Shown here one piece after another: positions 929-27,387 of a stretch of DNA of 64,000 nt. A program made the position numbers and the translations under genes. Position 1 is the first letter of the stretch. Each line of letters starts with the position of its first letter. This stretch comes from Aromatoleum petrolei (GTDB lineage Bacteria; Pseudomonadota; Gammaproteobacteria; Burkholderiales; Rhodocyclaceae), in assembly GCF_017894385.1 (NCBI RefSeq), contig NZ_CP059560.1:248001-312000 (forward strand). Reading direction: 5' to 3'. The notes beneath the pieces were generated by a model. That model had not been told where the DNA came from. It saw only the letters and a program-made list of their open reading frames with translations, and did not search any database.

Positions 929-1153
929 ACCTTTCCCGCCCCCCGGCACCTCCCGGGGCGCAACGCAAGTGAACTGCGTCACTTCGGCGCAGTGCACCAC
1001 GTCATCGGCCCCCGCCACCCCACACCCCTAACCTGTGCTCGCACCCTGCGGCCCGAGCGGCCGCGCGGTGTCCGCCAGAAATCCGCGCAGCCCCCGACGG
1101 CGCCACTCTCACAACGCACCGCCGGCCCCTGCGTCACCGTGTGGAGGTGCCCC

Positions 1154-4707: not shown

Positions 4708-4726
4708 CTCGTTCTCCTGTCGCGGG

Positions 4727-8143: not shown

Positions 8144-8280
8144 TGTCGAGTCCTCGTTGGGGAGGGGCATGGAAGCGCAACCCGCTGCTCACTGTAGTCA
8201 GGGCCGATGACGACATCAAGAAATGAAACATCCCTTACAGTCGGATGTCCTTGCAGCCGATGCAAAACAGGTATCGCCGG

Positions 8281-10335
8281 CTACTTCCCGGGCAGCACCG
8301 CGACGCCCTGCCAGGCCGGGTCGCGCGGACGCGCCGCGAGCGCGCGACACTGCGCGAGATAGAAGACCGCGGGCCCTGCGTCACCGGCCTCGCGGGCGGC
8401 CGCGAATTGCGCCGCCGCGGCGCCGAATTCGCCCGCCACGAAAGCCTGCAGCCCTGCGCCGAAACGGGCCGCGGCCGGCGCGGGCAACGCCTCGCGCGAC
8501 AACTGCAACAGCTCCATCGCCTGCCCCTTGCCGGCCAGCGCGAAGCGCCCGAGCGACCGCGCCTCGCCCGGCCCGAGACGATCGGCGACCGCGCGCGAAA
8601 CCAGCACCCCGGTGTTCAGGTACTTGTTGGCGCCCTGGATGCGGCTCGCCGTGTTCACGATATCCCCCACCGCGCGCAACTCGTGTCGCCCGGGCGCACC
8701 AACCTCGCCGAAGAAGATCGGCCCGCAGTGCAGGCCCAGGCGGGTCGGCAGCGCGCCGTCCGCGCCGGGGCTCGCGTTCATCGCCCGGTCGAGCTCGAGC
8801 CCCGCGCGGCACGCCGCCGCGACAGCGGGCTCCGGACCGGTCTCGGCGATCCACAGCGACAACACCGAATCGCCCACCATGTCGGCAGCGTAGCCGCCAT
8901 GACTCTCGACGATGGGGATGAAGCGCGCGAGATAGCGGTTCAGCAGATCGCGCGCGGCCTGCGGACTCAGCGACTCGGCGATCGTCGTGTAGGAGACGAT
9001 GTCGCTGCACAGGCACACCGCGATGACGGTCTTGCCCTGCCCCCCGTCGCCGAGCACCGCTGCCAGCCTCTCGATCGCCGCGCGCGGCACGCCCAGCTCC
9101 AGCGCGCGCTCGAGCTCGCCCCGGCGGCGCAGCGCCGCGCGATGCTGGCGCGCGATCCCCAGCGCGCCGACGAGCGCCGGCGAGAACGCGAGCGGCAGCA
9201 CGACCGGCAGCCACAGCCGCGCCGCCGAGAAGGCCCACAAAGCCAGCCCCGCATACACGACGCACACGCCGGCGGTCGCCGCGAGCGCCGCGCGCGGGCG
9301 TGCAAGGCCCCAAGGCAGCGCCAGCAGTGCCGCCTGCGCGGCCAGCAGCGCGAGCGCGGCCCCCTCGCCCGGCCGGCGCAGCCAGCTGCCTTCGAGCAGG
9401 TTGCCGAGCGCGGTCGCGGCGAGCTCGACGCCGCTCACATCGACGCCGTCGGCGGTGCTGAAAGGGGTACGGTAGGCATCGGTCTGGCGCGACTGGTTCG
9501 CCTCCGAATACCCCACCAGCACGGCCTTGCCACCGAAGGTCGCGGTCGCCGCCACGGGATCGGCGAGGAGTTCGAGCGCGCGCCCGTAGGAGATCGTCGT
9601 GACCGTGCCGAGCGGGCCGTACAGGTTCAGCAGGCGACGCGGTTCATCCGGCGACGGATCCTGCGGCGATCCCGCCACGCCCATGCGCGTGGCCAGCACG
9701 AGCGGGAGCGAGGGTCGGTCGCCCACCGTCGGCACCCGCGTCCAGAATTCGAACACCCCGTCGGGCGTCTTCGGCAGCACGAAAGGCGCGCTCGCGCCCG
9801 CCGCCTCGGCGAACAGCGGCAGCGGCGGCACCCTTTGGTCGGCGCTCGCGACGACGCTGCCGTCGGCACCGCGGACGAAGTCGCGCCGGATCGTCTCCGC
9901 CAGCACGACCCGCCCGGCGCGCCGCAGCGCGTCGGCGAGCGCCGCGTCCTCGGCCGGCTCGCGCGCCTGCGCAAACAGCACGTCGAACCCGATCACCCGC
10001 GCACCGCTCGCCGCGAGCCCCGAGATCAGCCGCGCATGCAGCCCGCGTGGCCAGCGCTCGGGCCGCTCCGGCACCCCTAGCGCTTGGGCCGACGCCGCGT
10101 CCATGGCTACAATCACAATGTCTTGTGGTGCGGCGACTGGCCCGCGCAGTCCATACAGGAAGCGCAGACCGAAGCTGCGCTCGAGCTCCGCGAGCGGCGA
10201 CAGCCCCAGCGCGAGCGCGAGCAGCGCCCCCGCCAGTGCCATCCCGAGGGCGCCGCGCCAGGACGGTCGGACGGGGCCGTCCGCCGTGCGCCCCGGACTA
10301 TGAGCTGCTGAACGACGCAACGCGGGATCGTGCAT
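8281..10335 (-). CDS. CHASE2-domain class III nucleotide cyclase
   Basis: 684 residues from the ATG at 10335; no strong Shine-Dalgarno is visible and ATG 10242 is an alternative. Parts: an N-terminal hydrophobic segment (about 30-46), an extracytoplasmic CHASE2 sensor (about 55-320, with IVIVAMD and VIGFDVLF), three membrane segments (about 324-341, 350-370, 374-395), a class III cyclase domain (about 435-610), and a short alanine-rich TPR-like tail. The metal aspartates are Asp445 (CSDIVSYT) and Asp489 (DMVGDSV), and the transition-state Asn561 and Arg565 (GDIVNTASR) are present. Asp485 stands where many adenylate cyclases have a substrate-selecting lysine. It likely makes cAMP or a related nucleotide in response to an envelope signal. 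The start codon overlaps that of the divergent Crp-type gene, and the next gene in the operon is the FecR-TPR protein. Confidence 0.85.
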   Translation of the reverse strand: MHDPALRRSAAHSPGRTADGPVRPSWRGALGMALAGALLALALGLSPLAELERSFGLRFLYGLRGPVAAPQDIVIVAMDAASAQALGVPERPERWPRGLHARLISGLAASGARVIGFDVLFAQAREPAEDAALADALRRAGRVVLAETIRRDFVRGADGSVVASADQRVPPLPLFAEAAGASAPFVLPKTPDGVFEFWTRVPTVGDRPSLPLVLATRMGVAGSPQDPSPDEPRRLLNLYGPLGTVTTISYGRALELLADPVAATATFGGKAVLVGYSEANQSRQTDAYRTPFSTADGVDVSGVELAATALGNLLEGSWLRRPGEGAALALLAAQAALLALPWGLARPRAALAATAGVCVVYAGLALWAFSAARLWLPVVLPLAFSPALVGALGIARQHRAALRRRGELERALELGVPRAAIERLAAVLGDGGQGKTVIAVCLCSDIVSYTTIAESLSPQAARDLLNRYLARFIPIVESHGGYAADMVGDSVLSLWIAETGPEPAVAAACRAGLELDRAMNASPGADGALPTRLGLHCGPIFFGEVGAPGRHELRAVGDIVNTASRIQGANKYLNTGVLVSRAVADRLGPGEARSLGRFALAGKGQAMELLQLSREALPAPAAARFGAGLQAFVAGEFGAAAAQFAAAREAGDAGPAVFYLAQCRALAARPRDPAWQGVAVLPGK

Positions 10336-10987
10336 GACGGCATATCTGGAACAGGTCGAACTCTTCGCCGGCCTCGCCCCGGCCCAGCTCGAGGCGCTCG
10401 CCCGCAGCGCGCAGCCGCGCGTGTTTCCGCGCGGCGCGGTGGTACTCAACGTCGGCGACGAAGCCCGCGGCCTCTTCGTCGTGCAGACAGGCTCGCTGAA
10501 AGCCTACCTGATGGACGAGAACGGCCGCGAGCTGACCCTGTCGATCCACGGCCCGGGCGACTACTTCGGCGAGCTCGCGCTGCTCGACGACGCGCCACGC
10601 TCGGCCTCGGTGATCGCGCTCGAACGCTGCGAACTGCTCCACGTCGCCCGCCCGGCCTTCTTCGCGGTGCTCGACACCAATCCCGACAGCATCCACGTGC
10701 TGCTGCGCAACCTCGTGCGCCGCATCCGCGCGCTCACCGACAACGTGCAGGCGCTCGCGCTCGAAGACGTGTTCGGGCGCCTGCACCGCCTGCTCGAATC
10801 GCTCGCGGTGGCGCAGGGCGAGCAGTGGATCGTCGAGCCGCGCCTCACCCAGCAAGAGATCGCGAACCGTGTCGGCGCCTCGCGCGAGATGGTCAACCGC
10901 ATCGTGCGCGAACTCGTGATCGGCGGCTACCTCGTGCTCGAGCCGCAGCGCATCGTGATCCGGCGCCGCCTGCCGGCGCGCTGGTGA
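10334..10987 (+). CDS. Crp/Fnr-family transcription regulator
   Basis: A 217-residue protein with an N-terminal cyclic-nucleotide-binding beta-roll (about 10-120, phosphate-binding-type PGDYFGELALLDDAPRSASV) and a C-terminal winged helix (about 150-210, LTQQEIANRVGASREMVNRIVREL). The FGELAL...PRSA pattern is that of true cNMP binders, so cAMP or cGMP is a reasonable ligand, unlike FNR types with N-terminal cysteine clusters. It is divergent from the CHASE2-cyclase gene, and the two start codons share the bases of one CATG. No clear ribosome binding site is seen before the ATG. It probably reads the product of the neighbouring cyclase, but this is inference from position. Confidence 0.88.
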   Translation: MTAYLEQVELFAGLAPAQLEALARSAQPRVFPRGAVVLNVGDEARGLFVVQTGSLKAYLMDENGRELTLSIHGPGDYFGELALLDDAPRSASVIALERCELLHVARPAFFAVLDTNPDSIHVLLRNLVRRIRALTDNVQALALEDVFGRLHRLLESLAVAQGEQWIVEPRLTQQEIANRVGASREMVNRIVRELVIGGYLVLEPQRIVIRRRLPARW

Positions 10988-11007
10988 GCGACGCACGCCA
11001 GCCGCCC

Positions 11008-11460
11008 TCACCGCGCCCCCGCCCTGTCGTCGGCCAGACGCAAGCGCCGGCTCAACTCACGCGCGATGTTCATCTGGATCAGCGCGAACTGCTCGACGTC
11101 GCGCTCGTACAACTCGAACAGGTTCGCGGCGAAGATCTCGAGCGCGCGGCAATCCTCCAGCGCCTGCACCGTCGCGCTGCGCGGCGACAGGTCGATGAGC
11201 GCCATCTCGCCGAAGCACGCACCCGGCCCCAGCGTACACAGCACGACCTCGCCCCCGCACGCGTGCCGACGCACCGCGACGCTGCCGGCCTCCAGCACGA
11301 ACATCGACTCGGCGGGTTCGCCCTCACGGAAGACGAAAGCTCCGGCTAGCACCGCGCGCTCCGCACAACGGCCGAGCAGGAAGTCGAGCATGTCCGCGCG
11401 GATGCCGCCGAACAGCGGCATCTGCTGCAACCTCAGGATTCGCTCCGCCCGCCCCTGCAT
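11008..11460 (-). CDS. Stand-alone cyclic-nucleotide-binding domain protein
   Basis: A 150-residue protein that is almost entirely one cNMP-binding domain (GACFGEMALIDLSPRSATVQALED is the phosphate-binding cassette region, broken here only by residue variation). There is no DNA-binding domain after it; the C-terminus is a basic helix (NIARELSRRLRLADDR). It converges on the Crp-type gene with a 20-nt gap. A single-domain cNMP receptor beside a cyclase and a Crp protein suggests a second effector of the same messenger, acting through protein contact rather than DNA. Its target is not visible in the sequence. Confidence 0.8.
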   Translation of the reverse strand: MQGRAERILRLQQMPLFGGIRADMLDFLLGRCAERAVLAGAFVFREGEPAESMFVLEAGSVAVRRHACGGEVVLCTLGPGACFGEMALIDLSPRSATVQALEDCRALEIFAANLFELYERDVEQFALIQMNIARELSRRLRLADDRAGAR

Positions 11461-13852: not shown

Positions 13853-15217
13853 TCACATGCCCAGATAGGCCTTCTTCACCTGCTCGTCGTGCAGCAACTC
13901 CGGGCCGGGACCGCTGAGGATGGTGTGGCCGGTCTCGATCACGTAGCCGATGTCGGCGATCGCAAGCGCCGCGTGGGCGTTCTGCTCGACGAGGAAGATC
14001 GTGATGCCCTCGGCCTTCAGGCTCCGGATGACGCGGAAGATCTCCTCGACCAGCAGCGGCGCGAGTCCCATCGAGGGTTCGTCGAGCAGCAGCAGCTTCG
14101 GCCGCCCCATCAGCGCGCGCGCCATCGCCAGCATCTGCTGCTGGCCGCCCGACAGGGTTCCGGCCGGCAGCGCGCGCTTCTCCTTCAGGATCGGGAAGAT
14201 GCCGTACATGCGTTCCAGGTCCTGTTCGATCTCGCGGTCGCGGCGGAAGTAGGCGCCGAGTCGCAAGTTGTCCTCGATGCTCATCGGGCCGAACACCTGC
14301 CGCCCCTCGGGGACCTGGCAGATGCCGGCGCGCACGCGCTTTTCGGGCGCGAGGCGCGTGATGTCCTCGCCCTTGAAGCGCACGACGCCACCGGACGCGG
14401 GCTGTACGCCGGAGATCGTCCGAAGCAGCGTCGTCTTGCCGGCACCGTTCGCGCCGACCAGCGCGACGAGCTGACCCTGCTTCACGTCGAGGTCGATGCC
14501 GTGCAGCGCCTGGATGCGGCCGTAGTGCGAGGTCAGGCCGCGGATTTCGAGGACCGTCTCGCGCACCGGAGCGGGCGCCGGCGCGAAGGCCGCGTTCTCG
14601 CGCCGCCCGCCCAGGCCCACCGGCTCGGGCGCGAGCGCGATGATGCGCGCCTTGAGCGCGTCGAGCTCGCCGCGCGAACGGACGCCGAACAGCGGGTCCT
14701 CATCGGCGGCGAAGGCGTCGTCGATGCGCTCCCAGTCTTCGGGCAGCAGCGCACGGCGCGCGGCCGGGATAACATCCGTTTCCTCGAAGCGCATGTGCTG
14801 GCGCAGATGCTCGGCGAACTCGCGCAGCGCGACGAGGAAGGCTTGCTGCTCATCGCGCTGCCCGTCGCGGAAGGCGGTCGCCAGCGCATGGACGCGATCG
14901 CGATGGACCGGGCCGTCGCGGTGCTCGGCTTCGAGCCGGTCGATGGCGGCTGCAGCCGCCGGATCACGCCGCCGCAGCGCGGGGAACAGGAACTCGTCTT
15001 CCTTGCGGTGGTGGATGCGGTCGATGTAGGCATCCAGGTATTCCAGCAGCTCGGCAGTCGTCGCGGCAGCGGCCTGCGCGTCGCGGTCGGCGGCGATCGC
15101 TTCGGCGAGCGCGTCCAGCGCGCTGGCGACGCGCCACATGCCGCGATGCTCGGCCTGGATGATGTCGATGGCGAGCATCCGTGATTCGATAACTTCCATA
15201 ACTTCCATAACTTCCAT
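13853..15217 (-). CDS. Hemerythrin domain fused to LivF-type ABC ATPase
   Basis: A 454-residue protein; AAGGAGA precedes the ATG at 15217. Residues about 15-190 are a hemerythrin/HHE four-helix domain with likely di-iron ligands His24, His69/His70, Glu73 (HHRKEDEFLFPAL), His99, His141 and Glu145 (HMRFEETDVIPA). An Ala/Pro-rich linker (about 195-221) leads to a full-length LivF ATPase (about 222-454) with Walker A GANGAGKT at 255-262, signature LSGGQQQML and Walker B LLLLDEPSMG. The frame is continuous and I see no ribosome binding site before the ATPase part, so this is a true fusion as written. It lies 11 nt after livG in a LivHMGF set. Hemerythrins bind O2, NO or iron, so uptake could be tied to oxygen or redox state (inference). 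The first nine residues are three copies of Met-Glu-Val. Confidence 0.85.
   Translation of the reverse strand: MEVMEVMEVIESRMLAIDIIQAEHRGMWRVASALDALAEAIAADRDAQAAAATTAELLEYLDAYIDRIHHRKEDEFLFPALRRRDPAAAAAIDRLEAEHRDGPVHRDRVHALATAFRDGQRDEQQAFLVALREFAEHLRQHMRFEETDVIPAARRALLPEDWERIDDAFAADEDPLFGVRSRGELDALKARIIALAPEPVGLGGRRENAAFAPAPAPVRETVLEIRGLTSHYGRIQALHGIDLDVKQGQLVALVGANGAGKTTLLRTISGVQPASGGVVRFKGEDITRLAPEKRVRAGICQVPEGRQVFGPMSIEDNLRLGAYFRRDREIEQDLERMYGIFPILKEKRALPAGTLSGGQQQMLAMARALMGRPKLLLLDEPSMGLAPLLVEEIFRVIRSLKAEGITIFLVEQNAHAALAIADIGYVIETGHTILSGPGPELLHDEQVKKAYLGM
15191..15217 (-). repeat. Three tandem 9-nt repeats at the livF start
   Basis: ATGGAAGTT is repeated three times from the start codon at 15217, giving three Met-Glu-Val units and three in-frame start codons, of which the first has the best-placed AAGGAGA. 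Slippage here would add or remove nine bases without a frameshift. Confidence 0.85.
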
Positions 15218-15228
15218 GGTCGTCTCCT

Positions 15229-15984
15229 TCAGGCCGATGCGCCGAGGTAGGCGGCGATGACGTCGGGGTTCTCGCGGATCTCGGCGGCCGTGCCTTCGGC
15301 GAGCTTCCGGCCGTAGTCGAGCACGAGGATGTGATCCGACAGGTTCATGACGAGCTTCATGTCGTGCTCGACGAGCACGACCGTGACGCCCGAATCGGCG
15401 ACCTTGCGGATGAGCGCCTCGATCTCGCCAGTCTCGGTGTGGTTGAGGCCGGCGGCCGGTTCGTCGAGCAGTAGCAGCTTGGGCTTGGCCGCCAGCGCGC
15501 GCGCGATTTCCAGGCGCTTCAGCGCGCCGTAGGACATCTGGCTCGCCTGCGCGTCGCGGTACTGGCCGACGCCGACGAAGTCCATCAGGCGCGCCGCTTC
15601 TTCCCGGCATTCGGCATCCGCACGCGCCAGCCCGGGCAGCCGGAACAGGCCCGCGAGCAGGCTGGACCCCAGCCGCAGGTGCGCGCCGACCATGACGTTC
15701 TCGATCGCGCTCATGTTCATGCACACCTGCAGGTTCTGGAAGGTGCGGCTCATGCCGCGGCGCGCGAGCCGGTCCGGGCTCACGCCGCCGGCGGGCGCGT
15801 CGTCGAACAGGATCTCGCCACTGGTGGGCGTGTAGATGCCGGTGATGAGGTTGAAGAGCGTCGTCTTGCCGGCGCCGTTGGGGCCGATCACGGCGTGGAT
15901 CGTGCCGGCGCGGACAGTGAAGGACACGTCCTGCACCGCCTTCACGCCGCCGAAGGTCTTGGAGAGATTGCGCACTTCCAGCAT
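15229..15984 (-). CDS. LivG-type ABC transporter ATP-binding protein
   Basis: A 251-residue ATPase of the branched-chain amino acid transporter family. It has Walker A GPNGAGKTTL, signature SYGALKRLEIARAL, Walker B LLLLDEPAAGLNHTE and the H-loop VEHDMKLVM. The ATG at 15984 overlaps the livM TGA by one base (TGATG) and has GGGAGGG upstream, pointing to translational coupling. It acts at the inner face of the cytoplasmic membrane with the LivF-type fusion and the LivH/LivM permeases. Given its place inside the paa cluster, the cargo is more likely phenylacetate or a related aromatic acid than leucine; this is inference from context. Confidence 0.9.
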   Translation of the reverse strand: MLEVRNLSKTFGGVKAVQDVSFTVRAGTIHAVIGPNGAGKTTLFNLITGIYTPTSGEILFDDAPAGGVSPDRLARRGMSRTFQNLQVCMNMSAIENVMVGAHLRLGSSLLAGLFRLPGLARADAECREEAARLMDFVGVGQYRDAQASQMSYGALKRLEIARALAAKPKLLLLDEPAAGLNHTETGEIEALIRKVADSGVTVVLVEHDMKLVMNLSDHILVLDYGRKLAEGTAAEIRENPDVIAAYLGASA

Positions 15985-16922
15985 CACGCGGCCCTCCCGG
16001 CGAATTTGAGGCGCAGCGTCGGCACGATGCCGCGCGGCAGGAAAATCATGGTGAGCATCAGGATCAGGCCGAAGATGACGGTCTCCCAGCCCTCGAAGGC
16101 CGACAGCAACTGCGGCAGCAGCGTCAGCACGACGGCGCCGAGGATGGAGCCGAATACGGACGCCATGCCGCCGAGCACCACCATGGTGATGAGCTCGATG
16201 GAATGGAAGAAGCCCGCGACGCCCGGCGTCAGGAAGCCGACGTAGTGAGCGGTGACGCTGCCCATGACGCTGGCGATGACCGCCGACAGCACAAAAACTC
16301 TCACCTTGAACGAGGGCACGTCGATGCCCGCGACGCGCGCGGCCACTTCCGAGCCGTGGATCGCTTGCAGCGCGCGTCCCGCCGGTGCGTCGATGAGGTT
16401 CAGCGCGCCGCGCGTGACGAACAGCAGCAGCACGGCGACGACGCCGTACCACGCCTGTTCGCCGGCAATCTGGAGGCCGAACAGGCTGAACGCGTCCACC
16501 GGCATGCCGTCCGGCCCACCGGTGAACTCGGTCTCGTTGACGATCACCATCGATAGGATGATGCCCAGCCCCAGCGTCGCCATCGCGAGGTAGTTGCCCT
16601 TGAGCTTGAGGATCGGGCGCGCGACGACGAAGGCCAGCGCCGCGGTCGCGGCCGCGCCGAGTCCCATCGCGAGCGCCGACGGCAGGCCGTAGCGGCTCGT
16701 CAGGATCGCCGACGCGTACGCACCGATGCCGAAGAAGCCGGCGTGGCCCAGGCTGATCTGCCCCGTGTAGCCCACGAGCAGGTTGAGGCCGACGGCGATG
16801 GTGGCGTTGATCGCCATCCGGATCGCCAGGTCGTAGTAATAGGCGTTCGGCAGCGCCAGCGGCAGCACCGCCAGCACGAACGCGAGGAACAGGAATCCGC
16901 GTGTGGTCGGCTTCATGGTCAT
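15984..16922 (-). CDS. LivM-type ABC transporter permease
   Basis: A 312-residue inner-membrane permease with about eight to ten hydrophobic segments and family signatures NLLVGYTGQISLGHAGFFG near residue 50 and LGGMASVFGSILGAVVLT in the C-terminal half. The ATG at 16922 overlaps the livH stop (ATGA), while a second in-frame ATG lies at 16916. LivM pairs with LivH to form the channel for a periplasmic-binding-protein-dependent importer. The hydrophilic N-terminus is short (MTMKPTTRG). Confidence 0.9.
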   Translation of the reverse strand: MTMKPTTRGFLFLAFVLAVLPLALPNAYYYDLAIRMAINATIAVGLNLLVGYTGQISLGHAGFFGIGAYASAILTSRYGLPSALAMGLGAAATAALAFVVARPILKLKGNYLAMATLGLGIILSMVIVNETEFTGGPDGMPVDAFSLFGLQIAGEQAWYGVVAVLLLFVTRGALNLIDAPAGRALQAIHGSEVAARVAGIDVPSFKVRVFVLSAVIASVMGSVTAHYVGFLTPGVAGFFHSIELITMVVLGGMASVFGSILGAVVLTLLPQLLSAFEGWETVIFGLILMLTMIFLPRGIVPTLRLKFAGRAA

Positions 16923-17794
16923 ACCCGGTCGGTGGTCTTCTTGCCGAAGATGCCCTGCGGCAGGAAGAAGAGGATGAGAAGGATCAGCACGAAGGGCATC
17001 GCGTCCTTGTAGGCGGACGAGATGTAGCCGGCCGTCATCGCCTCGACGATGCCCAGCAGCAGGCCGCCGACGATCGCGCCGACGCCGCTCCCGAGCCCGC
17101 CCAGCGCCGCGGCGACGAAGCCCTTGAGGCCCATCATGATTCCCGCGTCGTAGCTGGTGTAGGTCATCGGCGCGACGAGAATGCCGCCGACCGCGCCGAG
17201 CGCCGCGGACAGGCCGAAGGCCAGCAGCAGGACGAAGCGCGTATTGACACCGACCAACTGCGCCGCGAGCTTGTTGCACGAGGTCGCGAGCACCGCCTTG
17301 CCGAGCGTGGTGCGGCCGAAGAAGAGCGCCAGCGCGACGACCACGACGAGGGTGACGCCCATGACCCACAGGCTTTGCGGCATCAGCGTCGCGCCCAGGA
17401 TCGCGATGGGTTCCTCGCCCGAGAAGGCCGGCAGCGCGTGGTTGCCCTTGCCGAGAAACACTTCCACGAGCCCGCGCAGCGTGAGCGAGGCGCCGATCGT
17501 GATGATCACGAGCGTGACGACTTCGGCATTGCCGGCCGGCTCGATCGCGAGCTTCTCGACGATCAGGCCGGCCACGACCGCGACGAGGATCGCGAGCGTG
17601 ATCGCCAGCGGCAGCGGGACGCCGGCCTGCACGAGCAGCGCCGCGGACATTCCGCCGAGCATGATGAATTCGCCCTGGGCGAAGTTGATGACGCCCGAGG
17701 CGCTATAGATGAGGGAAAAGCCGACCGCCGCGAGCGCGTACATCGCGCCGACGGTAAGGCCGGAGAAGAGGAACTGCAGAAGTTCGGACAGCAC
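16919..17794 (-). CDS. LivH-type ABC transporter permease
   Basis: A 291-residue permease with multiple membrane spans and the LivH hallmarks GAMYALAAVGFSLIYSASGVINFAQGEF (residues about 16-44, quoted here only as a landmark in parts: GAMYALAAVG, INFAQGEF) and GLKGFVAAALGGLGS. It partners LivM. The gene begins 90 nt after the binding-protein gene and its stop overlaps the livM start by 4 nt, the usual tight coupling in these operons. Length is standard for the family. Confidence 0.9.
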   Translation of the reverse strand: MLSELLQFLFSGLTVGAMYALAAVGFSLIYSASGVINFAQGEFIMLGGMSAALLVQAGVPLPLAITLAILVAVVAGLIVEKLAIEPAGNAEVVTLVIITIGASLTLRGLVEVFLGKGNHALPAFSGEEPIAILGATLMPQSLWVMGVTLVVVVALALFFGRTTLGKAVLATSCNKLAAQLVGVNTRFVLLLAFGLSAALGAVGGILVAPMTYTSYDAGIMMGLKGFVAAALGGLGSGVGAIVGGLLLGIVEAMTAGYISSAYKDAMPFVLILLILFFLPQGIFGKKTTDRV

Positions 17795-17884: not shown

Positions 17885-19033
17885 TCAGTTCAGCAGCGTC
17901 CAGTCCCCGTTGCGGATCTCCAGCATGCGGAAGGCCGACAGGCTCAGTCCCATGTGGTCGTTCGCCGACAGGTTGAAGGTGCCGCTGGTGGCGACGAGGT
18001 TCGACGTGCTTTCCAGCGCGTCGCGCACCTTGGCCTTGTCGGTCGAACCGGCCCGGCGGATGGCGTCGGCCGCGAGCATCAGCCCGTCGTAGGCGTAGCC
18101 GCCGAAGGTCGAAGGCTCGGCCTTCCAGCGCTCGGCAAAGAGCTTCGCGTAGTCGCTGACGACCTTCTTCTGCGGATCGGTGGCTGGCAGCTTGGCCGCG
18201 ACCGGCAGCGCGGGCGACGGCAGGCGCACGCCTTCGGCGGCGCTGCCGGCGAGCCGGATGTACTCGTCGGACGCGACGCCGTGCGACTGGTACAGCGGCA
18301 GCTTGATGCCCAGCTGCGCGTAGTTCTTCGTCACCACTGCGGGGCCCTGCCCCAGGCCGAACACGAACACCGCCTGCACGCCCGCCACGCCCTTGATCTT
18401 GGTGAGCTGGGCGGTCATGTCGGTGTCCTTGGGACCGTAGGTCTCGTCGGCCACCAGGGTGATGCCGTATTTCGCGGCCACGGCCTGCGACTCCTTGCGC
18501 CCGGACTGGCCGAAGCCGCTGTTCTCCGAGAGCAGCGCGACCTTCGTCAGGCCCGCCTTCTTCATGTCGTCGAAGACGCGCTCCGCGGCCATGCGGTCGG
18601 TGTGCGGCGTCTTGAACATCCACTTCTTCGGCGGCTCGACGATCACGACGGCGCCGGCGAGCGAGATGAAGGGGATCTGCGCACGCTCGACGAGCGGCGC
18701 CATCGCCATCGTCGCACCACTGGTCGTGCCGCCGATGATCAGGTCGACCTTGTCGTTCTCGATCAGGCGCTTGGTGAAGCCGTTGGCCTTGCCCGACTCG
18801 CTGCCGTCGTCGTAATGCACGAGCTCGATCGGCCGGCCGATCAGGCCGCCGTTCTTGTTCAGCGTCTCGACGTACATCTGCAGCGTCTTCAGCTCCGGAT
18901 CGCCGAGGTAGGCGGCGGGACCGGTGACCGAGAGCACGGCGCCGATGCGGATGGGGTCGGCGGCGTAGGCCGTACCGAGCGTGGCGCAGGCGGCCGCGGC
19001 GAGGGTGAACTTGATGAAAGTGCGCTTTTCCAT
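17885..19033 (-). CDS. Periplasmic ligand-binding protein of the LivJ family
   Basis: A 382-residue secreted binding protein. The ATG at 19033 is chosen because AAGGAGA sits upstream and it gives a clean signal peptide (MEKRTFIKFTLAAAACATLG, cleavage after AYA near residue 24). The mature protein begins DPIRIGAVLSVTGPAAYLGD, the standard Peripla_BP_6 opening. It captures the substrate for the LivHMGF-type importer encoded downstream. The nearest enzyme genes are the phenylacetate thiolase and ligase, so an aromatic acid is the likeliest ligand, but binding specificity cannot be read from the sequence. Confidence 0.88.
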   Translation of the reverse strand: MEKRTFIKFTLAAAACATLGTAYAADPIRIGAVLSVTGPAAYLGDPELKTLQMYVETLNKNGGLIGRPIELVHYDDGSESGKANGFTKRLIENDKVDLIIGGTTSGATMAMAPLVERAQIPFISLAGAVVIVEPPKKWMFKTPHTDRMAAERVFDDMKKAGLTKVALLSENSGFGQSGRKESQAVAAKYGITLVADETYGPKDTDMTAQLTKIKGVAGVQAVFVFGLGQGPAVVTKNYAQLGIKLPLYQSHGVASDEYIRLAGSAAEGVRLPSPALPVAAKLPATDPQKKVVSDYAKLFAERWKAEPSTFGGYAYDGLMLAADAIRRAGSTDKAKVRDALESTSNLVATSGTFNLSANDHMGLSLSAFRMLEIRNGDWTLLN

Positions 19034-19141: not shown

Positions 19142-20347
<1,206 letters not shown>

Positions 20348-20361
20348 CGTCCCTTCCCTCC

Positions 20362-21681
20362 TCAGGCGGTCACGTTGCGCTTGTCGATCAGGCGCTTGGC
20401 CTTGCCGACCGAGCGGAACAGCGAGCCCGGCTGGGCCATCGTCGTCTTGGTGCTGATGCCGATGTAGGACTTGATGTTGTGCTGCAGCAGCTTGCCGATC
20501 TCCTGCTGGCGCAGCGGGCCGAGGTCGGCGGCTTCGGGCGACAGCTCGACGACGACTTCCATCTTGTCCATGTGGCCGTCGCGGGTCAGCTCGATCTGGT
20601 AGTGCGGCGAGAGCTCCTTCTGCTTCAGGATCAGCTCCTCGATCTGGCTCGGGAACACGTTCACGCCGCGAATGATCAGCATGTCGTCCGAGCGCCCGGT
20701 GATCTTGCCGATGCGGCGCATCGAGCGCGAGGTCGGCGGCAGCAGGCGGGTCAGATCGCGCGTGCGGTAACGGATCACGGGCAGCGCTTCCTTCGACAGC
20801 GACGTGAAGACGAGCTCGCCCTCCTCACCGTCCGGCAGCACTTCGCCGGTCTCGGGGTCGATGATCTCGGGGTAGAAGTGGTCTTCCCAGATCACCGGGC
20901 CGTCCTTGCTCTCGATGCACTCGCTCGCGACGCCCGGGCCCATCACTTCGGACAGGCCGTAGATGTCGACCGCGTCGATGCCGGCGCGGGCCTCGATCTC
21001 ATGGCGCATCGCCTCGGTCCAGGGCTCGGCGCCGAAGATGCCGATCTTGAGCGACGAGTCGGCCGGGTCCAGCCCCTGGCGCACGAACTGCTCGAGGATG
21101 TTGAGCATGTAGGACGGCGTCACCATGATGACCTTCGGCTGGAAGTCCTGGATCAGCTGGACCTGACGCTCGGTCTGGCCGCCGGACATCGGCACCACGG
21201 TGCAGCCGAGGCGCTCGGCACCGTAGTGCGCGCCCATGCCGCCGGTGAAGAGGCCGTAGCCGTAGGAGATATGGACGACATCACCCTTGCGGCCGCCGGC
21301 GGCGTAGATCGAACGCGCGACGAGGTTGGCCCAGTTGTTGATGTCATTCTGCGTGTAGCCGACGACGGTCGGCTTGCCGGTCGTGCCGCTCGAGGCGTGC
21401 ACGCGCACCACTTCCTCACGGGGCACGGCGAAGAGACCGAAGGGATAGTTGTCGCGGAAGTCCTTCTTCACGGTGAAGGGGAATTTCGACAGGTCGGCCA
21501 GCGTCTTCAGGTCCGACGGATGGACGCCGGCCGCCTCGAAGCTGCGGCGGTAGTGCGGCACGTTGTCGTAGGCGTGCTGGACGGTCTTCTTCAGGCGCTC
21601 GAGCTGCAGCGCGCTCAGTTCGTCGCGGCTCGCGGTCTCGATCGGGTCGAAGCCGATGCCATTTTCCATGCGTGCGTTCAT
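20362..21681 (-). CDS. paaK: Phenylacetate-CoA ligase
   Basis: A 439-residue AMP-forming ligase with the P-loop SSGTTGKPTVVGYT, the DIYGLSEVMGPGVASEC active-site region and the C-terminal GVNVFPSQIEELIL segment that carries the PaaK swivelling domain. It activates phenylacetate with ATP and CoA, the entry step of the pathway. AGGAG about 7 nt before the ATG at 21681 supports this start; ATG 21669 is the alternative. Length matches the family. It lies between paaN and paaJ, with a 175-nt gap upstream that holds a small palindromic repeat. Confidence 0.95.
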   Translation of the reverse strand: MNARMENGIGFDPIETASRDELSALQLERLKKTVQHAYDNVPHYRRSFEAAGVHPSDLKTLADLSKFPFTVKKDFRDNYPFGLFAVPREEVVRVHASSGTTGKPTVVGYTQNDINNWANLVARSIYAAGGRKGDVVHISYGYGLFTGGMGAHYGAERLGCTVVPMSGGQTERQVQLIQDFQPKVIMVTPSYMLNILEQFVRQGLDPADSSLKIGIFGAEPWTEAMRHEIEARAGIDAVDIYGLSEVMGPGVASECIESKDGPVIWEDHFYPEIIDPETGEVLPDGEEGELVFTSLSKEALPVIRYRTRDLTRLLPPTSRSMRRIGKITGRSDDMLIIRGVNVFPSQIEELILKQKELSPHYQIELTRDGHMDKMEVVVELSPEAADLGPLRQQEIGKLLQHNIKSYIGISTKTTMAQPGSLFRSVGKAKRLIDKRNVTA

Positions 21682-21856: not shown

Positions 21857-23518
21857 TCAGGCCGCGAAGCGGTGCTGGATCACGCGGAAGCGGTTCGCCA
21901 CGAAGGCGCTGTCCGAATAGCTCGCGTTGGCCGACGGATTCGCGCCGGTGCCGTGGTAGTCCGAGAACGCCGCCGACTGGTTCACATAGACGGCGCCGGT
22001 CAGGTTCAGCGACAGCGCCACGCCTGCGCGCTGGGTCGCGGCGATCATCTGCTGCACGAACTCGGGCTTGCTGCTGTAGGCGCCAACCGTGAGCGCGCCA
22101 TGCTCCGTCGTGATGCGCTCGGACAGCGCGAGCGCCGCCGCGGCGTCGGCGGTGCGCACGACGAAGGCGATCGGGCCGAAGCGCTCTTCCATGTAGGCGG
22201 CCTCGTCGGCTGCGTCGCACGTCAGCAGCACCGGCGTGCGCACCGTCGCTTCGGCATACTCCGGATGAGCGACCGGCTTCGACGCCAGCACGACTTCGCC
22301 CCAGCGCGAGGCTTCGTCGAGGCGGCCGAGGGTGTCGGACGACTGGATGCAGCCGAGCACCGCAGCTGCGACGGCGGGGTCCGCCAGCAGCTTGTCGATG
22401 GAACGTCCCAGGTCGGACGCGACCTCGTCGAAGCTCTTGTGGCCCTGGTCGGTGTCGATGCCGTTCGCCGGCACGAGGATCGCCTGCGTCGTCGTGCACA
22501 TCTGGCCCGAGTACAGCGACAGCGTGAAGGCGAGGTTGCGCAGCATGCCCTTGTAGTCGTCGGTCGATTCGATGACGACGTTGTTCACGCCGGCGAGCTC
22601 GGCATACACCTGGGCCTGGCGGCAGTTCTCGATCAGCCAGTTGCCGAAGCTGTTGCTGCCGGTGAAGTCGATCGACTTCACCGCCTTGTGCGTCGCGAGG
22701 AAGCGCGTCAGTTCGCGCGAATCATCGACGGCGAGCAGCACGGCATTGGGGTCCGCACCGGCTTCGGCGAGCACTTCGCGCAGCACGCGCACGGTGATCG
22801 CCGCCGGCAGGATGGCGTTGCGGTGCGGCTTCACGATCACTGGGTTGCCGGTCGCGAGCGCCGCGAACAGGCCCGGATAGGTGTTCCAGGTCGGGAAGGT
22901 GCCGCAGCCGATGACGAGGGCGGTGCCGCGTCCGACGATCTCGTAGCGCTTCTTCATGACCAGCGCCGGGTTCTTGCCCTGCGGCTTTTCCCAGACGGCT
23001 TCCGCGGGAATGGCGGACATCTCGCGCCAGGCGTAGGCGACGGCTTCCAGCGCGCGATCCTGCGCATGCGCGGCACCCGCCTGGAAGGCCATCATCCAGC
23101 CCTGGCCGGTCGTGAACATCACCGCATGGGCGATCTCGAAGCTGCGCTGGTTGAGGCGCACCAGCGCTTCGAGCAGCGCGCCGACGCGACCCTCGGCGCC
23201 GAGGGCCTGCAACGATTCACGCGCGGCCTGCGACGCCTCGATCAGCGCTTCGCCGCTGCAGCGCGGGTAACGGATGTTCATCGGCACGCCGTAGGGCGAG
23301 CGCTCCGCGCCGGCGGTGCCGGTGCAGCCGGGCTGGTCAAGCTGGAAGTCGGTGCCGCAATAGGCGTCGAAAGCCGCGCGACCTTCGGCCATCGCGTTCT
23401 CGCCATACACCTTGGGGCTGGGCATCTCGGAGAACGGGCTCCAGTAGCCGCGTTCGGCTGCGGCCTGGACGGCGCGCTCCAGCATCGCCTGATGGCGAGC
23501 AAACATCGGGTGGGTCAT
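21857..23518 (-). CDS. paaN: PaaN-type aldehyde dehydrogenase of phenylacetate degradation
   Basis: A 553-residue aldehyde dehydrogenase-fold enzyme of the shorter PaaN type. It has SIDFTGSNSFGNWL, a cysteine in LYSGQMCTTTQAILV as candidate nucleophile, and the ending VANRFRVIQHRFAA. Unlike E. coli PaaZ (about 680 residues) it has no C-terminal MaoC-like hydratase domain, so it could supply only the dehydrogenase step after oxepin-CoA ring opening; a separate hydratase would be needed and is not obvious nearby. It is 79 nt downstream of paaE and on the same strand. GAGAGAATTCAG precedes the ATG. Confidence 0.88.
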   Translation of the reverse strand: MTHPMFARHQAMLERAVQAAAERGYWSPFSEMPSPKVYGENAMAEGRAAFDAYCGTDFQLDQPGCTGTAGAERSPYGVPMNIRYPRCSGEALIEASQAARESLQALGAEGRVGALLEALVRLNQRSFEIAHAVMFTTGQGWMMAFQAGAAHAQDRALEAVAYAWREMSAIPAEAVWEKPQGKNPALVMKKRYEIVGRGTALVIGCGTFPTWNTYPGLFAALATGNPVIVKPHRNAILPAAITVRVLREVLAEAGADPNAVLLAVDDSRELTRFLATHKAVKSIDFTGSNSFGNWLIENCRQAQVYAELAGVNNVVIESTDDYKGMLRNLAFTLSLYSGQMCTTTQAILVPANGIDTDQGHKSFDEVASDLGRSIDKLLADPAVAAAVLGCIQSSDTLGRLDEASRWGEVVLASKPVAHPEYAEATVRTPVLLTCDAADEAAYMEERFGPIAFVVRTADAAAALALSERITTEHGALTVGAYSSKPEFVQQMIAATQRAGVALSLNLTGAVYVNQSAAFSDYHGTGANPSANASYSDSAFVANRFRVIQHRFAA

Positions 23519-23597: not shown

Positions 23598-24674
23598 TCA
23601 GGTTTCCTGGTCGAAGTCCAGGACCAGCTTGTCCGTGACCGGATAGCTCTGGCACGACAGACGGAAACCGCGCGCGATCTCGTAGTCCTCGAGCGCGAAG
23701 TTGGTGTCGTGGTCGACCTCGCCGTCGATGACCTTGCAGCGGCAGGTCGAGCACACCCCGCCCTTGCACGAGTACGGCATCTCGATGCCCTGCGCGAGGC
23801 CGGCGTCGAGCACGGAATCGCGGTTCTTCGGCATCGTGAATTGACGCACGCGGCCGTCCTGGATCACGGTAACCTCGCACTCCTCGGCGCCCTTCACGGG
23901 ATGCGCATGCGCCGGGCGCGGACCCTTCGGCAGGCTGGTCGCGAAGAGCTCCATCTTGATGGCGGACTTCTCGATACCGTGCGCCTGCAGCGACGCCGAC
24001 ACCGCTTCCATCATGTCCATCGGTCCGCAGATGAAGGCCATGTCGATGCGCTTCGGGTCGATCCACTTCGCCAGCAGCGCGTCGCAGCGCTCGCGGTCGA
24101 TGCGACCGTTGAAGAGGTCGATGTCCTGCTGCTCGCGGGAGAGCACGTGCACCAGATTCAGGCGCTCGCCGTACTCGTCCTTCAGGTCGGCGAGCTCCTC
24201 GCGGAACATCACGCTCGACGACGAGCGGTTGCCATACACCAGCGTGAAGCGGCTGTCGGGCTCGCCCGCCAGCAGCGTCTTCACCAGCGACAGGATCGGA
24301 GTGATGCCGCTGCCGGCCGCAAAACCGACGTAGCGACGCGCAGTCTGCGCGTCCGGCGCGATGCCGAAGTGGCCGGAAGGCGGCATCACCTGCACGCTCA
24401 CGCCCGGCTTCAGGAAGTCGTTCGCCCAGTTCGAGAACAGGCCGCCATGCACGCGCTTGATCGCCACGCGCAGCTCGCGCTCCCCGGCGCCGGAACAGAT
24501 CGAATACGAGCGACGCACGTCCTCGCCGCCGATCTCGGTGCGCAAGGTCAGGTGCTGGCCGGGCGTGTAGTGGAACGACTCCGCAAGCGAGGGCGGCACG
24601 TCGAAGGTGACGACGATCGCATCGCGGGTCTCGGGGCGCACGCTGGCGACCCGGATATCGTGGAACTTGCTCAT
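23598..24674 (-). CDS. paaE: Phenylacetyl-CoA epoxidase reductase subunit
   Basis: 358 residues from the ATG at 24674. The N-terminal ferredoxin-reductase module has the FAD motif RRSYSICS and NAD-binding GSGITPILSLVKTLL and CGPMDMM. The C-terminal plant-type 2Fe-2S domain has the cysteine series CKGGVCSTC followed by a distant Cys in RLSCQSYP. It passes electrons from NAD(P)H to the di-iron PaaA subunit. The gene follows paaD by 28 nt. Domain order (reductase first, ferredoxin last) and length match PaaE. Confidence 0.94.
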   Translation of the reverse strand: MSKFHDIRVASVRPETRDAIVVTFDVPPSLAESFHYTPGQHLTLRTEIGGEDVRRSYSICSGAGERELRVAIKRVHGGLFSNWANDFLKPGVSVQVMPPSGHFGIAPDAQTARRYVGFAAGSGITPILSLVKTLLAGEPDSRFTLVYGNRSSSSVMFREELADLKDEYGERLNLVHVLSREQQDIDLFNGRIDRERCDALLAKWIDPKRIDMAFICGPMDMMEAVSASLQAHGIEKSAIKMELFATSLPKGPRPAHAHPVKGAEECEVTVIQDGRVRQFTMPKNRDSVLDAGLAQGIEMPYSCKGGVCSTCRCKVIDGEVDHDTNFALEDYEIARGFRLSCQSYPVTDKLVLDFDQET

Positions 24675-24702
24675 GTCTCTTGCTCCTCTCGGAGTGCCTT
24701 TC

Positions 24703-25236
24703 TCAGTGGCACTTGAAGTAGTCGAACGGCTCGCGGCAGTCGAGGCAGCGATGAAGCGCCTTGCACGGGGTCGAACCATGGCGGCTGATAGGCTCGGTGT
24801 GCGTCGAGCCGCAGTGCGGACATGCGGCGGGCGCGTCCTCGGCGATGCGCCGGCGCAGCCCGCTGATGTCGATCACCTGGCGTCCGTCGGCGCGGCGGGC
24901 CGGGGGCGCGATCCCGTATTCGCTCAACTTCCGGCGGCCCTCGCTGCTCAGCCAGTCCGTGGTCCAGGCCGGAGCGATGCGGCTCTGCAACCGCACCCGC
25001 TCCACCCCCCGCTCGCGCAGCGCCTCCTCGATGGAGCGGCCGATCACCTCGGTCGCCGGACATCCCGAATAGGTCGGCGTGATCACCACCTCGCACACCG
25101 CCCCGGCTGGATCGTCGTGCCAGTTCACCTCCCTCACGATCCCCAGATCGACGATGGAAATGACCGGGATTTCGGGATCGGGCACATCGGCCAGCCAGCC
25201 CCACACCCTCTCGCTGCGTTCGCGCAAGTTGCCCAT
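24703..25236 (-). CDS. paaD: PaaD, Fe-S/metal maturation-type subunit of the epoxidase
   Basis: A 177-residue MIP18/DUF59-family protein, with VPDPEIPVISIVDLGIVREV and TYSGCPATEVI in the first half and a zinc-ribbon-like C-terminus (CPHCGSTHTE...HRCLDCREPFDYFKCH). The family is needed for epoxidase maturation rather than catalysis. The ATG at 25236 has TGAGG upstream and starts 22 nt after paaC; two GTG codons lie a few triplets earlier. Length is normal for PaaD. Confidence 0.92.
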   Translation of the reverse strand: MGNLRERSERVWGWLADVPDPEIPVISIVDLGIVREVNWHDDPAGAVCEVVITPTYSGCPATEVIGRSIEEALRERGVERVRLQSRIAPAWTTDWLSSEGRRKLSEYGIAPPARRADGRQVIDISGLRRRIAEDAPAACPHCGSTHTEPISRHGSTPCKALHRCLDCREPFDYFKCH

Positions 25237-25258
25237 CGCTGCCTCACTCACCACGTTG

Positions 25259-26014
25259 TCACCAGCTTGCGTTGGGATAGGCGCGCTGCAGGAACTGCAT
25301 CTCGGCCAGCAGCAGCCCCAGATGCTCACCATGCCGCCCCTGCTTGCCACCCTTCTGCATCCATTCGCCGGCCGGCACCGTCAGCGTCGCCTCGTCGAAC
25401 ACCTCGCGCACCATCGCCAGCCACGCGTCCTTCAGCGTCGAGGGATCGCAGGCCAGGCCCTGTGCGCCGAGCAACTCCTCGGTCTCGTCGGCCTTGAACA
25501 TCTCGCCGGTGAACATCCACAGCGCGTCGACCGCGTCCTGCATGCGGCGGCGGCTTTCCGCGCTGCCGTCGCCCAGGCGCACCACCAGGTCACTGCTGCG
25601 GCGCAGGTGGTAGGCCACTTCCTTGATCGCCTTGGACGCGATGTCGGCGATGCGGTCGTCGGCCGAGCGCGTCAGCGCGTCGAGCGTCAGGTGGTGCCAC
25701 ACGTCGAAGAAGAACTGGCGCACCAGCGTGTGGGCGTAGTCGCCGTTCGGCTGCTCGACCAGCAGCAGGTTGGTGAACTCGTGGGCATCGCGGCGGAAGG
25801 CCAGCGCGTCCTCGTCGCGGCCGCGCCCTTCCACCTCGCCGGCGTAGGACAGCCACATCCGCGCCTGGCCGATCAGGTCGAGCGCGGTGTTGGTCAGCGC
25901 CATGTCCTCCTCGAAGGCCGGGCCCTTGCCGCACCACTCGGAAAGGCGCTGCGACAGCACCAGCGCGTTGTCGCCGAGGCGCATCAGATAAACGGACTTG
26001 TCATCGAGCAGCAT
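25259..26014 (-). CDS. paaC: Phenylacetyl-CoA epoxidase structural subunit C
   Basis: A 251-residue ferritin-like helical protein with YLMRLGDNALVLSQRLSEW at the start and EDMALTNTALDLIGQARMW, diagnostic of PaaC. It pairs with PaaA in the epoxidase core and is structural, lacking a competent di-iron site. The ending AEMQFLQRAYPNASW is also typical. It sits 21 nt after paaB. Confidence 0.95.
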   Translation of the reverse strand: MLLDDKSVYLMRLGDNALVLSQRLSEWCGKGPAFEEDMALTNTALDLIGQARMWLSYAGEVEGRGRDEDALAFRRDAHEFTNLLLVEQPNGDYAHTLVRQFFFDVWHHLTLDALTRSADDRIADIASKAIKEVAYHLRRSSDLVVRLGDGSAESRRRMQDAVDALWMFTGEMFKADETEELLGAQGLACDPSTLKDAWLAMVREVFDEATLTVPAGEWMQKGGKQGRHGEHLGLLLAEMQFLQRAYPNASW

Positions 26015-26035
26015 GTCTGTCTCCCGATCCTGTCA

Positions 26036-26317
26036 TCACATGTGCTTCACTTCTTCCGGAACCGGGAAGAAGGTCGGGTGGCGGTAGATCTTGTTGTTCG
26101 CGGGCTCGAACAGCGCTTCCTTGTCAGCCGGGCTGCTCGCCGTCACTTCAGCGGCAGGCACGACCCAGATCGACAGGCCTTCGTTGCGGCGCGTGTAGAC
26201 GTCGCGCGCGTTGTTGATCGCCATCTCCGCATCCGGTGCGTGCAGGCTGCCGACGTGCTTGTGGGCGAGGCCATGCTGGCTGCGGATGAACACTTCCCAA
26301 AGGGGCCATTCCTTCAT
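26036..26317 (-). CDS. paaB: Phenylacetyl-CoA epoxidase subunit B
   Basis: A 93-residue small subunit with the family pattern WPLWEVFIRSQHGLAHKHVG and ARDVYTRRNEGLSIWVVPA. PaaB bridges PaaAC heterodimers in the multicomponent oxygenase. It lies 25 nt after paaA and 21 nt before paaC. Confidence 0.95.
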   Translation of the reverse strand: MKEWPLWEVFIRSQHGLAHKHVGSLHAPDAEMAINNARDVYTRRNEGLSIWVVPAAEVTASSPADKEALFEPANNKIYRHPTFFPVPEEVKHM

Positions 26318-26342
26318 TTCTCTTCTCCTCTCAATCTCGCTA

Positions 26343-27344
26343 TCAGGCGGCCTTGGCGGTCGCGACCTGTCTTTCGGATTTCTTCTCGGCGTGCGCGAGC
26401 AGCGCGTCGCGGAACCACTTCCCGTCGTCCCAGGCCTTCACGCGGGTGCGCAGGCGGTCGCGGTTGCAGGGGCCGTTGCCGGCGACGACCTGGCGGAACT
26501 CCTCCCAGTCGATCGCGCCGAAGTCGTAGTGGCCGGTGTCCTCGTTCCATTTCAGTTCGGGATCGGGGATCGTCAGGCCCAGGTACTCGGCCTGCGGCAC
26601 GGTCTGGTCGACGAACTTCTGGCGCAGCTCGTCGTTCGACAGGATCTTGATCTTCCACTGCATCGACTGCGCGCTATGCACGGACTCGCCATCGGACGGC
26701 CCGAACATCATCAGCGCCGGCCACCACCAGCGGTTCAGCGCGTCCTGCGCCATCGCCTTCTGCTCCGGCGTGCCCTTGGCCATCGCCATCACGAGGTCGT
26801 AGCCCTGGCGCTGGTGAAAGGACTCCTCCTTGCACACGCGCACCATCGCCCTCGAGTACGGGCCGTAGGAGCAGCGGCACAGCGGGATCTGGTTCATGAT
26901 CGCCGCGCCGTCGACCAGCCAGCCGATCGTGCCGATGTCGGCCCAGTTGGTGGTCGGGTAGTTGAAGATGCTGGAATATTTCACCTTGCCCGACAGCAGG
27001 TCCGCATAAACCTGGTCGCGCGTGACGCCGAGCGTCTCGGCGGCGCTGTAGAGATAGAGCCCGTGGCCCGCCTCGTCCTGGATCTTCGCCAGCAGGATCG
27101 CCTTGCGCTTCAGCGACGGCGCGCGCGTCACCCAGTTGCCCTCGGGAAGCTGGCCGACGATTTCCGAGTGCGCGTGCTGCGAGATCTGGCGGATCAGGGT
27201 GCGGCGGTAGCCCTCCGGCATCCAGTCCTTGGCCTCGATCTTGATGCCGGCGTCGATCTTCTCCTGGAAGGCGCGCTCCTCGGCCGACATCTCGTCGAGC
27301 CCCTGCACGCGCTTCATCCCCGTGTCCACCATCTGGGCGTACAT
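26343..27344 (-). CDS. paaA: Phenylacetyl-CoA epoxidase catalytic subunit A
   Basis: 333 residues from the ATG at 27344, preceded by GAGGAGGAACAGC. This is the di-iron subunit that forms the ring-1,2-epoxide of phenylacetyl-CoA with O2. The iron-binding helices are visible as [14 protein letters not shown] and [15 protein letters not shown] (two ExxH motifs), and [20 protein letters not shown] is a PaaA hallmark. It is the first gene of the long minus-strand series, so the promoter should lie in the 540 nt upstream. Confidence 0.96.
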
Positions 27345-27387
27345 GCTGTTCCTCCTCTGTCCGGGTTCGTGCATCCGTCTTACGACG

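Follow-up and report, generated by a model that had tools for sequence, protein, structure and literature searches.

The window, that is, the whole stretch of 64,000 nucleotides from Aromatoleum petrolei analysed here, contains a gene in which a hemerythrin-type (HHE) domain is fused to the N-terminal side of a LivF-type ABC transporter ATPase. The fusion is widespread, keeps an invariant set of predicted iron ligands, is under purifying selection in both of its parts, belongs to a transporter operon and is tied to phenylacetate genes. By analogy with hemerythrin-domain enzymes we infer, at a probability of roughly 0.45, that the HHE domain gates an arylacetate importer in response to redox, O2, NO or iron.

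The gene is read on the minus strand, from 15217 down to 13853, as one open frame of 454 amino acids plus stop (Table 1). Pfam places the Hemerythrin family (PF01814) on residues 16-153 (E 2.2e-18; 67.4 bits against a curated cut-off of 25.3, which establishes family membership) and ABC_tran (PF00005) on residues 238-382 (E 3.2e-31). An earlier note on this DNA had described a single uninterrupted frame for a hemerythrin and a complete LivF ATPase, which is confirmed by the open reading frame, Pfam and NCBIfam alike. The top NCBIfam model for the ATPase part is that of E. coli LivF (PRK11614, residues 220-453). Since the score of 270.7 bits does not reach the equivalog cut-off of 441, the ATPase should be regarded as LivF-like rather than as E. 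coli LivF. Its ABC motifs are intact in 82 of 82 aligned rows (Walker A K261, signature S356, Walker B D379/E380) and residues 218-454 align to the LivF structure 1ji0 (E 6.7e-75). The ATPase domain and the LivKHMG operon are shared with LivF of known HAAT systems (1ji0, 1g6h); the difference lies in the HHE part, which is covered by none of the 49 solved sequences listed at E 1e-30.

Table 1 Features of the fusion gene and its surroundings in the window, followed by two reverse-order fusions numbered within their own loci
Feature	Positions	Strand	Evidence
HHE-LivF fusion gene	13853..15217	-	Open frame; Pfam/NCBIfam; at least 109 distinct loci of same architecture
LivF-type ABC ATPase domain, residues 223-454	13856..14551	-	Pfam, NCBIfam, invariant ABC motifs
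Linker, residues 204-222	14552..14608	-	Length 15-29 aa in 82 rows, mode 19
Hemerythrin/HHE domain with conserved C-terminal DPLFG...GLG part, residues 16-203	14609..15172	-	PF01814; alignments A1, A3, A4
H141-xxx-E145, predicted ligands (YtfE H204 and E208)	14783..14797	-	82/82 rows; YtfE alignment
H99, predicted ligand (YtfE H160)	14921..14923	-	82/82 rows; YtfE alignment
H69-xxx-E73, predicted ligands (YtfE H129 and E133)	14999..15013	-	82/82 rows (preselected); YtfE alignment
H24, predicted iron ligand (YtfE H84 by spacing)	15146..15148	-	82/82 rows
AAGGAG, Shine-Dalgarno-like, 6 nt before first ATG, overlapping livG stop	15224..15229	-	Sequence
LivG-type ATPase gene	15229..15984	-	ORF frame
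LivM-type permease gene	15984..16922	-	ORF frame
LivH-type permease gene	16919..17794	-	ORF frame
LivK-type substrate-binding protein gene	17885..19033	-	ORF frame
Thiolase gene	19142..20347	-	ORF frame
PaaK, phenylacetate-CoA ligase	20362..21681	-	TIGR02155, 744 bits (cut-off 646)
PaaN	21857..23518	-	TIGR02288, 895 bits (cut-off 579)
Phenylacetyl-CoA epoxidase genes	23598..27347	-	PaaE and PaaA over cut-off (TIGR02160, TIGR02156)
LivF-HHE reverse-order fusion, L210	95-1417		Adjoins LigA/LigB genes
LivF-HHE reverse-order fusion, L211 (G716)	9738-11132		

The fusion gene starts 11 nt past the livG stop and has a good ribosome-binding site. At its start (window 15191-15217) the sequence ATGGAAGTT stands three times in tandem, and these copies supply extra candidate start codons; a single copy is present in two genomes of the same genus (G007 and G008). 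The earlier note had pointed to an assembly artefact at 14560-14600 and to separate translation of the two halves as ways in which the fusion might prove unreal. The source genome is a 5.4-Mb single contig, and the join is no assembly artefact at that place, because the same architecture is found in at least 109 distinct loci. A Shine-Dalgarno-like motif with an in-frame start codon occurs in the linker region of only 1 of the 82 aligned rows, which makes separate translation unlikely. Nothing was found in favour of either possibility, and we consider both hardly credible.

The search for the same fusion in Rhodocyclales and beyond, as the earlier note had proposed, was positive. Pooling yielded 120 fusion loci, which reduce to at least 109 when identical LivF sequences are merged, in Beta- and Gammaproteobacteria (the 91-locus set used below includes some near-duplicates). 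Full-length fusion relatives are present in 4 of 61 close genomes, the own genome included; besides the latter, at least three were found in the class sample (369 genomes) and at least nine in the order sample (399 genomes). The family sample of 297 genomes gave 35 fusion loci in 34 genomes and 8 unfused loci of the same clade. When named genomes were scanned with the HHE profile, the 80 best of 578 relatives were retained, and 79 of them proved to be fusions: 68 from Betaproteobacteria, 5 from Gammaproteobacteria and 6 unlabelled at class level. Their genera are Dechloromonas (13), Azonexus (6), Rhodoferax (6), Zoogloea (5), Castellaniella (4), Polaromonas (3) and others, with 35 of the 79 bearing no genus label. 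A scan of viral sequences for the HHE part returned 31 pattern matches and 0 relatives.

Two candidates were rejected as fusions. L167, the remaining one of the 80 best relatives, was left out; it is an alphaproteobacterial contig on which an HHE-containing frame lies near HAAT-type genes, within about 10 kb (1266-10585), in a different arrangement. L277 has an upstream frame without an HHE domain and is counted among the 8 unfused loci. A second fusion copy in G008 (L061, 8176-9520 on contig C1) is broken by frameshifts; its coordinates recur on contig C5, the two contigs giving identical matches.

Conservation of the predicted di-iron site was assessed on alignment A4, of which the 82 rows (81 distinct, given one identical pair) comprise 70 of the 73 complete fusions, taken from the 79, and 12 other sequences; L158 was left out as short and L103 and L133 as duplicates. 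H24, H69, E73, H99, H141 and E145 are invariant in all 82 rows. H70 is kept in 81 and replaced by R in one, so that, where the earlier note had left the choice between H69 and H70, H69 is the likelier ligand; the other five residues are as it had named them. For the named-genome loci H69, H70 and E73 were preselected by the scan pattern HH[PAR]KE[DE]x[FYH]LF; in the set found without that pattern the six ligands are invariant in 14 of 14. Distant HHE domains are 33-47% identical to that of the window.

At E 0.01 the PDB relatives of the HHE profile are YtfE, NMB1532 and FBXL5. In a weak match to YtfE (E about 0.001 for the stretch, 1.5e-6 for the whole sequence), H69, E73, H99, H141 and E145 align onto H129, E133, H160, H204 and E208. 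Together with H84 these are the crystallographic di-iron ligands of YtfE (PMC9268430); five of the six are thus matched by alignment, and H24 takes the place of H84 from spacing only. Because the invariant ligand set matches that of YtfE, the HHE domain likely binds iron. The canonical hemerythrin motif, H-HxxxE-HxxxH-HxxxxD (PMC9388753), is absent from the domain: residue 103 is P in 73 of 82 rows and H in 1 of 82, and the fourth motif reads HxxxE. With His at position 103 in a single row the site is not that of a canonical O2 carrier, and as it is YtfE-like instead, reversible O2 binding cannot be assumed.

The presence of FBXL5 among the relatives (E 0.002) brings in an iron sensor of the FBXL5/BRUTUS type, which would fold only when loaded with iron and so permit or stop the entry of a substrate that takes many iron enzymes to degrade. 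Plant HHE domains have been proposed as iron sensors (PMC12022348), and such a sensor would suit aerobic and anaerobic clusters alike. The similarity to FBXL5 is weak, however, and we regard this explanation as quite improbable.

Comparison with known systems shows partial likeness to several. The predicted ligands are those of YtfE/RIC and come in the same sequence (4 His and 2 Glu, five of the six aligning), but YtfE/RIC carries an N-terminal ScdA domain (PMC9268430), whereas a Pfam scan found no ScdA domain in the fusion protein, which bears an ATPase instead. DcrH, Bhr-DGC and Bhr-HD-GYP likewise combine a hemerythrin-family domain and a functional domain in one chain, yet theirs have the motif H-HxxxE-HxxxH-HxxxxD, whereas here the third motif lacks the second His and the fourth is HxxxE. 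Some P1B-5 ATPases have a hemerythrin-type domain of unclear role on a transport ATPase; these are P-type metal pumps, however, with the motif H-HxxxE-HxE-HxxxxD and the domain at the C-terminus (PMC9388753). Stand-alone HHE genes, to whose COG3945 our relatives putatively belong, occur in aromatic clusters of Rhodocyclales (PMC6449761), but unfused and in box/ben rather than paa clusters. An ABC ATPase is not among the hemerythrin-domain sensors in the covered parts of a review (PMC9388753). A survey counted 56 architectures of canonical hemerythrins (PMC4919030), and the words 'ABC' and 'transporter' are absent from its main text, as distinct from a supplementary figure. No description of an HHE-LivF fusion was found in the literature covered, mainly titles and the beginnings of abstracts, and for the most part outside subscription journals.

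The operon runs LivK, LivH, LivM, LivG and fusion, with the fusion last (the starts of the LivG, LivM and LivK genes were picked by eye). Ahead of it on the same strand lie the thiolase gene, which we take to be PaaJ-like, and the genes for PaaK, PaaN and the epoxidase. The setting amid paa and uptake genes is as the earlier note had it: PaaA, PaaE, PaaK and PaaN exceed their NCBIfam cut-offs, and PaaB (69% to a relative), PaaC and PaaD were named by reading and comparison only. Elsewhere in the window (992-4297) a frame of 1101 amino acids presumably resembles a tyrosinase domain with a von Willebrand-type part.

Such a neighbourhood recurs across fusion loci. One or more of PaaA, B, C, K, N and X was seen within the fetched stretch of 66 of 91 loci (49 of the 60 stretches of at least 15 kb). 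No such gene was seen near the 20 top-scoring unfused LivF loci taken from relatives, 18 of which reach that length; Fisher's test gives p 1.6e-10 with the loci treated as independent. The control is the top unfused LivF match of 20 relatives, mostly from the window's family, rather than a random draw, and lower-scoring unfused LivF genes adjoining paa clusters do occur. Within the fetched stretches of the 91 loci partner genes for LivG were seen in 88, LivM in 87, LivH in 84 and LivK in 26. A gene for the PaaX regulator stands just upstream of livH in L104 (over cut-off) and L154 (by Pfam). Judged from these neighbours, the substrate of the transporter would be phenylacetate or a close arylacetate.

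Another recurring neighbour is the gene of an AurF-like protein, present in 29 of the 91 loci (Pfam AurF match at E 6.5e-5, below cut-off; no NCBIfam model). In L130 it lies between paaN and livH together with a gene for a BenC-like reductase, an arrangement of Dechloromonas agitata (5160-7346) and relatives. In 11 of the 34 fused genomes the AurF-like gene is present while no PaaA exceeds its cut-off, which makes the protein a candidate replacement oxygenase for phenylacetyl-CoA.

The earlier note had further suggested that the hemerythrin part could be a regulator that matches uptake to the O2 needed by PaaA. The di-iron site, the fusion, the constraint on it and the link to paa genes speak for a regulator; the tie to O2 for PaaA is weakened by the wider counts. 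Over 72 genomes, PaaA above cut-off is found in 17 of 34 fused genomes of the family sample, leaving 17 without it, in 3 of 8 unfused and in 16 of 30 others. For PaaA or the AurF-like protein, whose O2 use is only presumed, the numbers are 28 of 34, 3 of 8 and 17 of 30 (the 30 'other' genomes were hand-picked and 13 belong to the window's genus). An aerobic-route marker is present in 66 of 109 fusion loci (PaaA/B/C 8, BoxB 3, AurF-like 36, PaaN 49), although the list (PaaA, B, C, PaaN, AurF-like, BoxB) is loose: PaaA/B/C or BoxB only account for 11 loci and PaaN alone for 19. Six of the 109 have anaerobic pad genes, two of these also BoxB. L251 contains PadG, PadH and PadI (phenylglyoxylate dehydrogenase), Had and Oah, all over NCBIfam cut-offs, and the other five were identified by similarity to it. 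The markers used were all lacking in 26 of 109 loci, and in 12 of the 74 that span at least 15 kb.

Unfused members of the clade give a mixed picture as well: aerobic-route genes adjoin 2 of 8, and pad or mandelate/arylpyruvate-type genes 4 of 8. L066 and L067 both adjoin arylpyruvate-type oxidoreductase genes, and L066 also molybdoenzyme genes, presumably PadBCD. The unfused transporter of G012 has a paaABCDE cluster outside the counted stretch, its end lying about 11.5 kb ahead of livK. The simple rule that the HHE domain is present exactly where the pathway needs O2 was therefore rejected on the fuller counts, with 2 of 8 unfused loci aerobic-route and 6 of 109 fused loci carrying pad genes. 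Aerobic-only and anaerobic-only loci were also compared by a Fisher test (64:4 fused, 2:4 unfused; p 0.0008), but the result was not relied on: related loci enter it as if independent, and the marker list had been lengthened once the data were known.

The own genome has a second paaABCDE cluster (L290), where the transporter has an unfused LivF (49% identical); apparently phenylacetate uptake does not need the HHE domain, and the two clusters may serve different conditions. By coordinates, an unfused LivF-like match lies within about 10 kb of PaaA in nine further genomes of the genus (G002, G004, G005, G007, G008, G009, G011, G012 and G014). With paa and pad routes both near fusions, the common factor of the loci appears to be phenylacetate and its CoA ester, not PaaA. 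The pad genes at six fusion loci are incompatible with a single O2 rule, and a redox, NO or iron signal relevant to either route would fit better than O2 for PaaA.

Both parts of the protein are under purifying selection, the HHE domain being less constrained than LivF: in three Aromatoleum pairs NG86 dN/dS is 0.144-0.180 for the former and 0.040-0.063 for the latter. A LivF tree of 52 rows unites all 27 N-terminal fusions in a single clade (100/98), which is distinct from other LivF proteins and in which the unfused L066 and L067 are nested. A larger tree (45 fused, 8 unfused, 3 outgroup) again gives a fusion clade (100/100), in which the 8 unfused members take up to six positions, three of them forced by well-supported branches. 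This ATPase tree suggests, as its simplest reading, one gain of the fusion followed by several losses. The HHE tree is less uniform: 25 of 27 N-fused domains group together (95/85), and as L169 and L064 fall outside, nearer to stand-alone domains, there may have been more than one origin, or exchange of domains. LivF branches seem longer after HHE loss (for instance 0.27 for the L248/L249 stem), which would suit an ATPase released from constraint.

The transporter is kept without the HHE domain in 8 of 43 clade loci of the family sample, some of which still adjoin paa genes (L248, L249). Such losses with retention of the transporter, together with the faster change tolerated in the HHE domain, might be expected if the domain served merely in assembly or stability and took no part in signalling. 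This is unlikely in our opinion, because the six ligands are invariant in 82 of 82 rows in spite of the low identity between distant domains.

HHE domains are joined to importers in other ways too. G751 has, besides the N-terminal fusion, a LivF-HHE protein of opposite order (L210). Among 398 genomes of the order, two contain a full-length, stop-free match to L210, namely G751 and G716. In L208 and L209 the gene immediately after livF is a free HHE gene, and in L069 of the own genome such a gene follows a livF remnant. All six ligands are kept in L208, L209, L210, L211 and L069. L210 and L208 adjoin genes for LigA and LigB, an O2-using ring-opening dioxygenase. In the HHE tree the C-fused domains are separate from the N-fused ones, and the L210 domain groups with that of L069 (99/98). 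L212 (9758-11209) joins HHE to an alpha/beta hydrolase, with Leu replacing H141, directly after a livF-like gene and near DmpG-type and FAA-hydrolase genes. Among 28 stand-alone HHE relatives aligned, 26 have the six ligands and 2 show a gap at H24. As a tentative generalization, these arrangements could reflect a repeatedly evolved device in which aromatic-acid importers are gated by a YtfE-type domain, in either order or next door, in paa, pad and LigAB settings. It would include the free relatives in box clusters, and would let facultative degraders switch substrate entry in response to redox, O2, NO or iron, within seconds and without transcription.

The own genome contains 17 Hemerythrin-family matches over cut-off. 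In L069 (6027-8597; C1 at about 4.59 Mb) the intact free HHE gene comes after what is left of a HAAT operon that has suffered internal deletions. L068 (5257-6690, own genome) and L213 encode a protein with a C-terminal HHE domain, the N-terminal part of which we assume to be universal-stress-protein-like.

The free genes also lend weight to a different role, in which the HHE domain performs chemistry at the membrane: anchored there by LivF, it would protect or supply the pathway's iron enzymes close by, either by scavenging or buffering O2, NO or reactive oxygen or by lending iron. Stand-alone HHE genes in benzoate clusters of Rhodocyclales have been guessed to be protective or to act as an oxygen store or scavenger (PMC6449761), and YtfE, which the predicted site matches, is reported as a nitrite reductase and iron donor (PMC9268430). 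The own genome has a free HHE gene after boxABC and a thiolase gene (L070), and such chemistry would work equally well in aerobic and anaerobic clusters. What it leaves unexplained is why the domain should be fused to an ATPase, and in both orders, when a free domain would do. Transporter subunits are moreover usually scarce, which makes them poor for buffering. We see scavenging or iron lending as a serious rival, though on the unlikely side; a role of the HHE domain that is either regulatory or protective is plausible.

In the gate that we prefer, a HAAT importer (LivFGHMK-type, high-affinity) would bear on its LivF an N-terminal YtfE-like di-iron HHE domain, the state of which would shift with cell redox, O2, NO or iron supply. 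Two hemerythrin-domain enzymes have an activity that follows the redox state of the iron (PMC9388753), and by analogy the state of the HHE domain may alter ATP hydrolysis by LivF through the short linker. Uptake would thus be tuned post-translationally at oxic/anoxic shifts, when the cell changes from paa to pad or back to degrade one substrate. The gate may act in either direction, opening or closing in O2.

Should the HHE domain indeed gate the ATPase, it would amount to a switch that acts directly on an ABC importer in response to redox, gas or iron, and hence to a layer of control over aromatic degradation that is absent from the literature found. The fusion also offers a handle on the role of HHE proteins in aromatic clusters: with the partner physically attached to the domain, ATPase activity and uptake give a readout of what the domain does.
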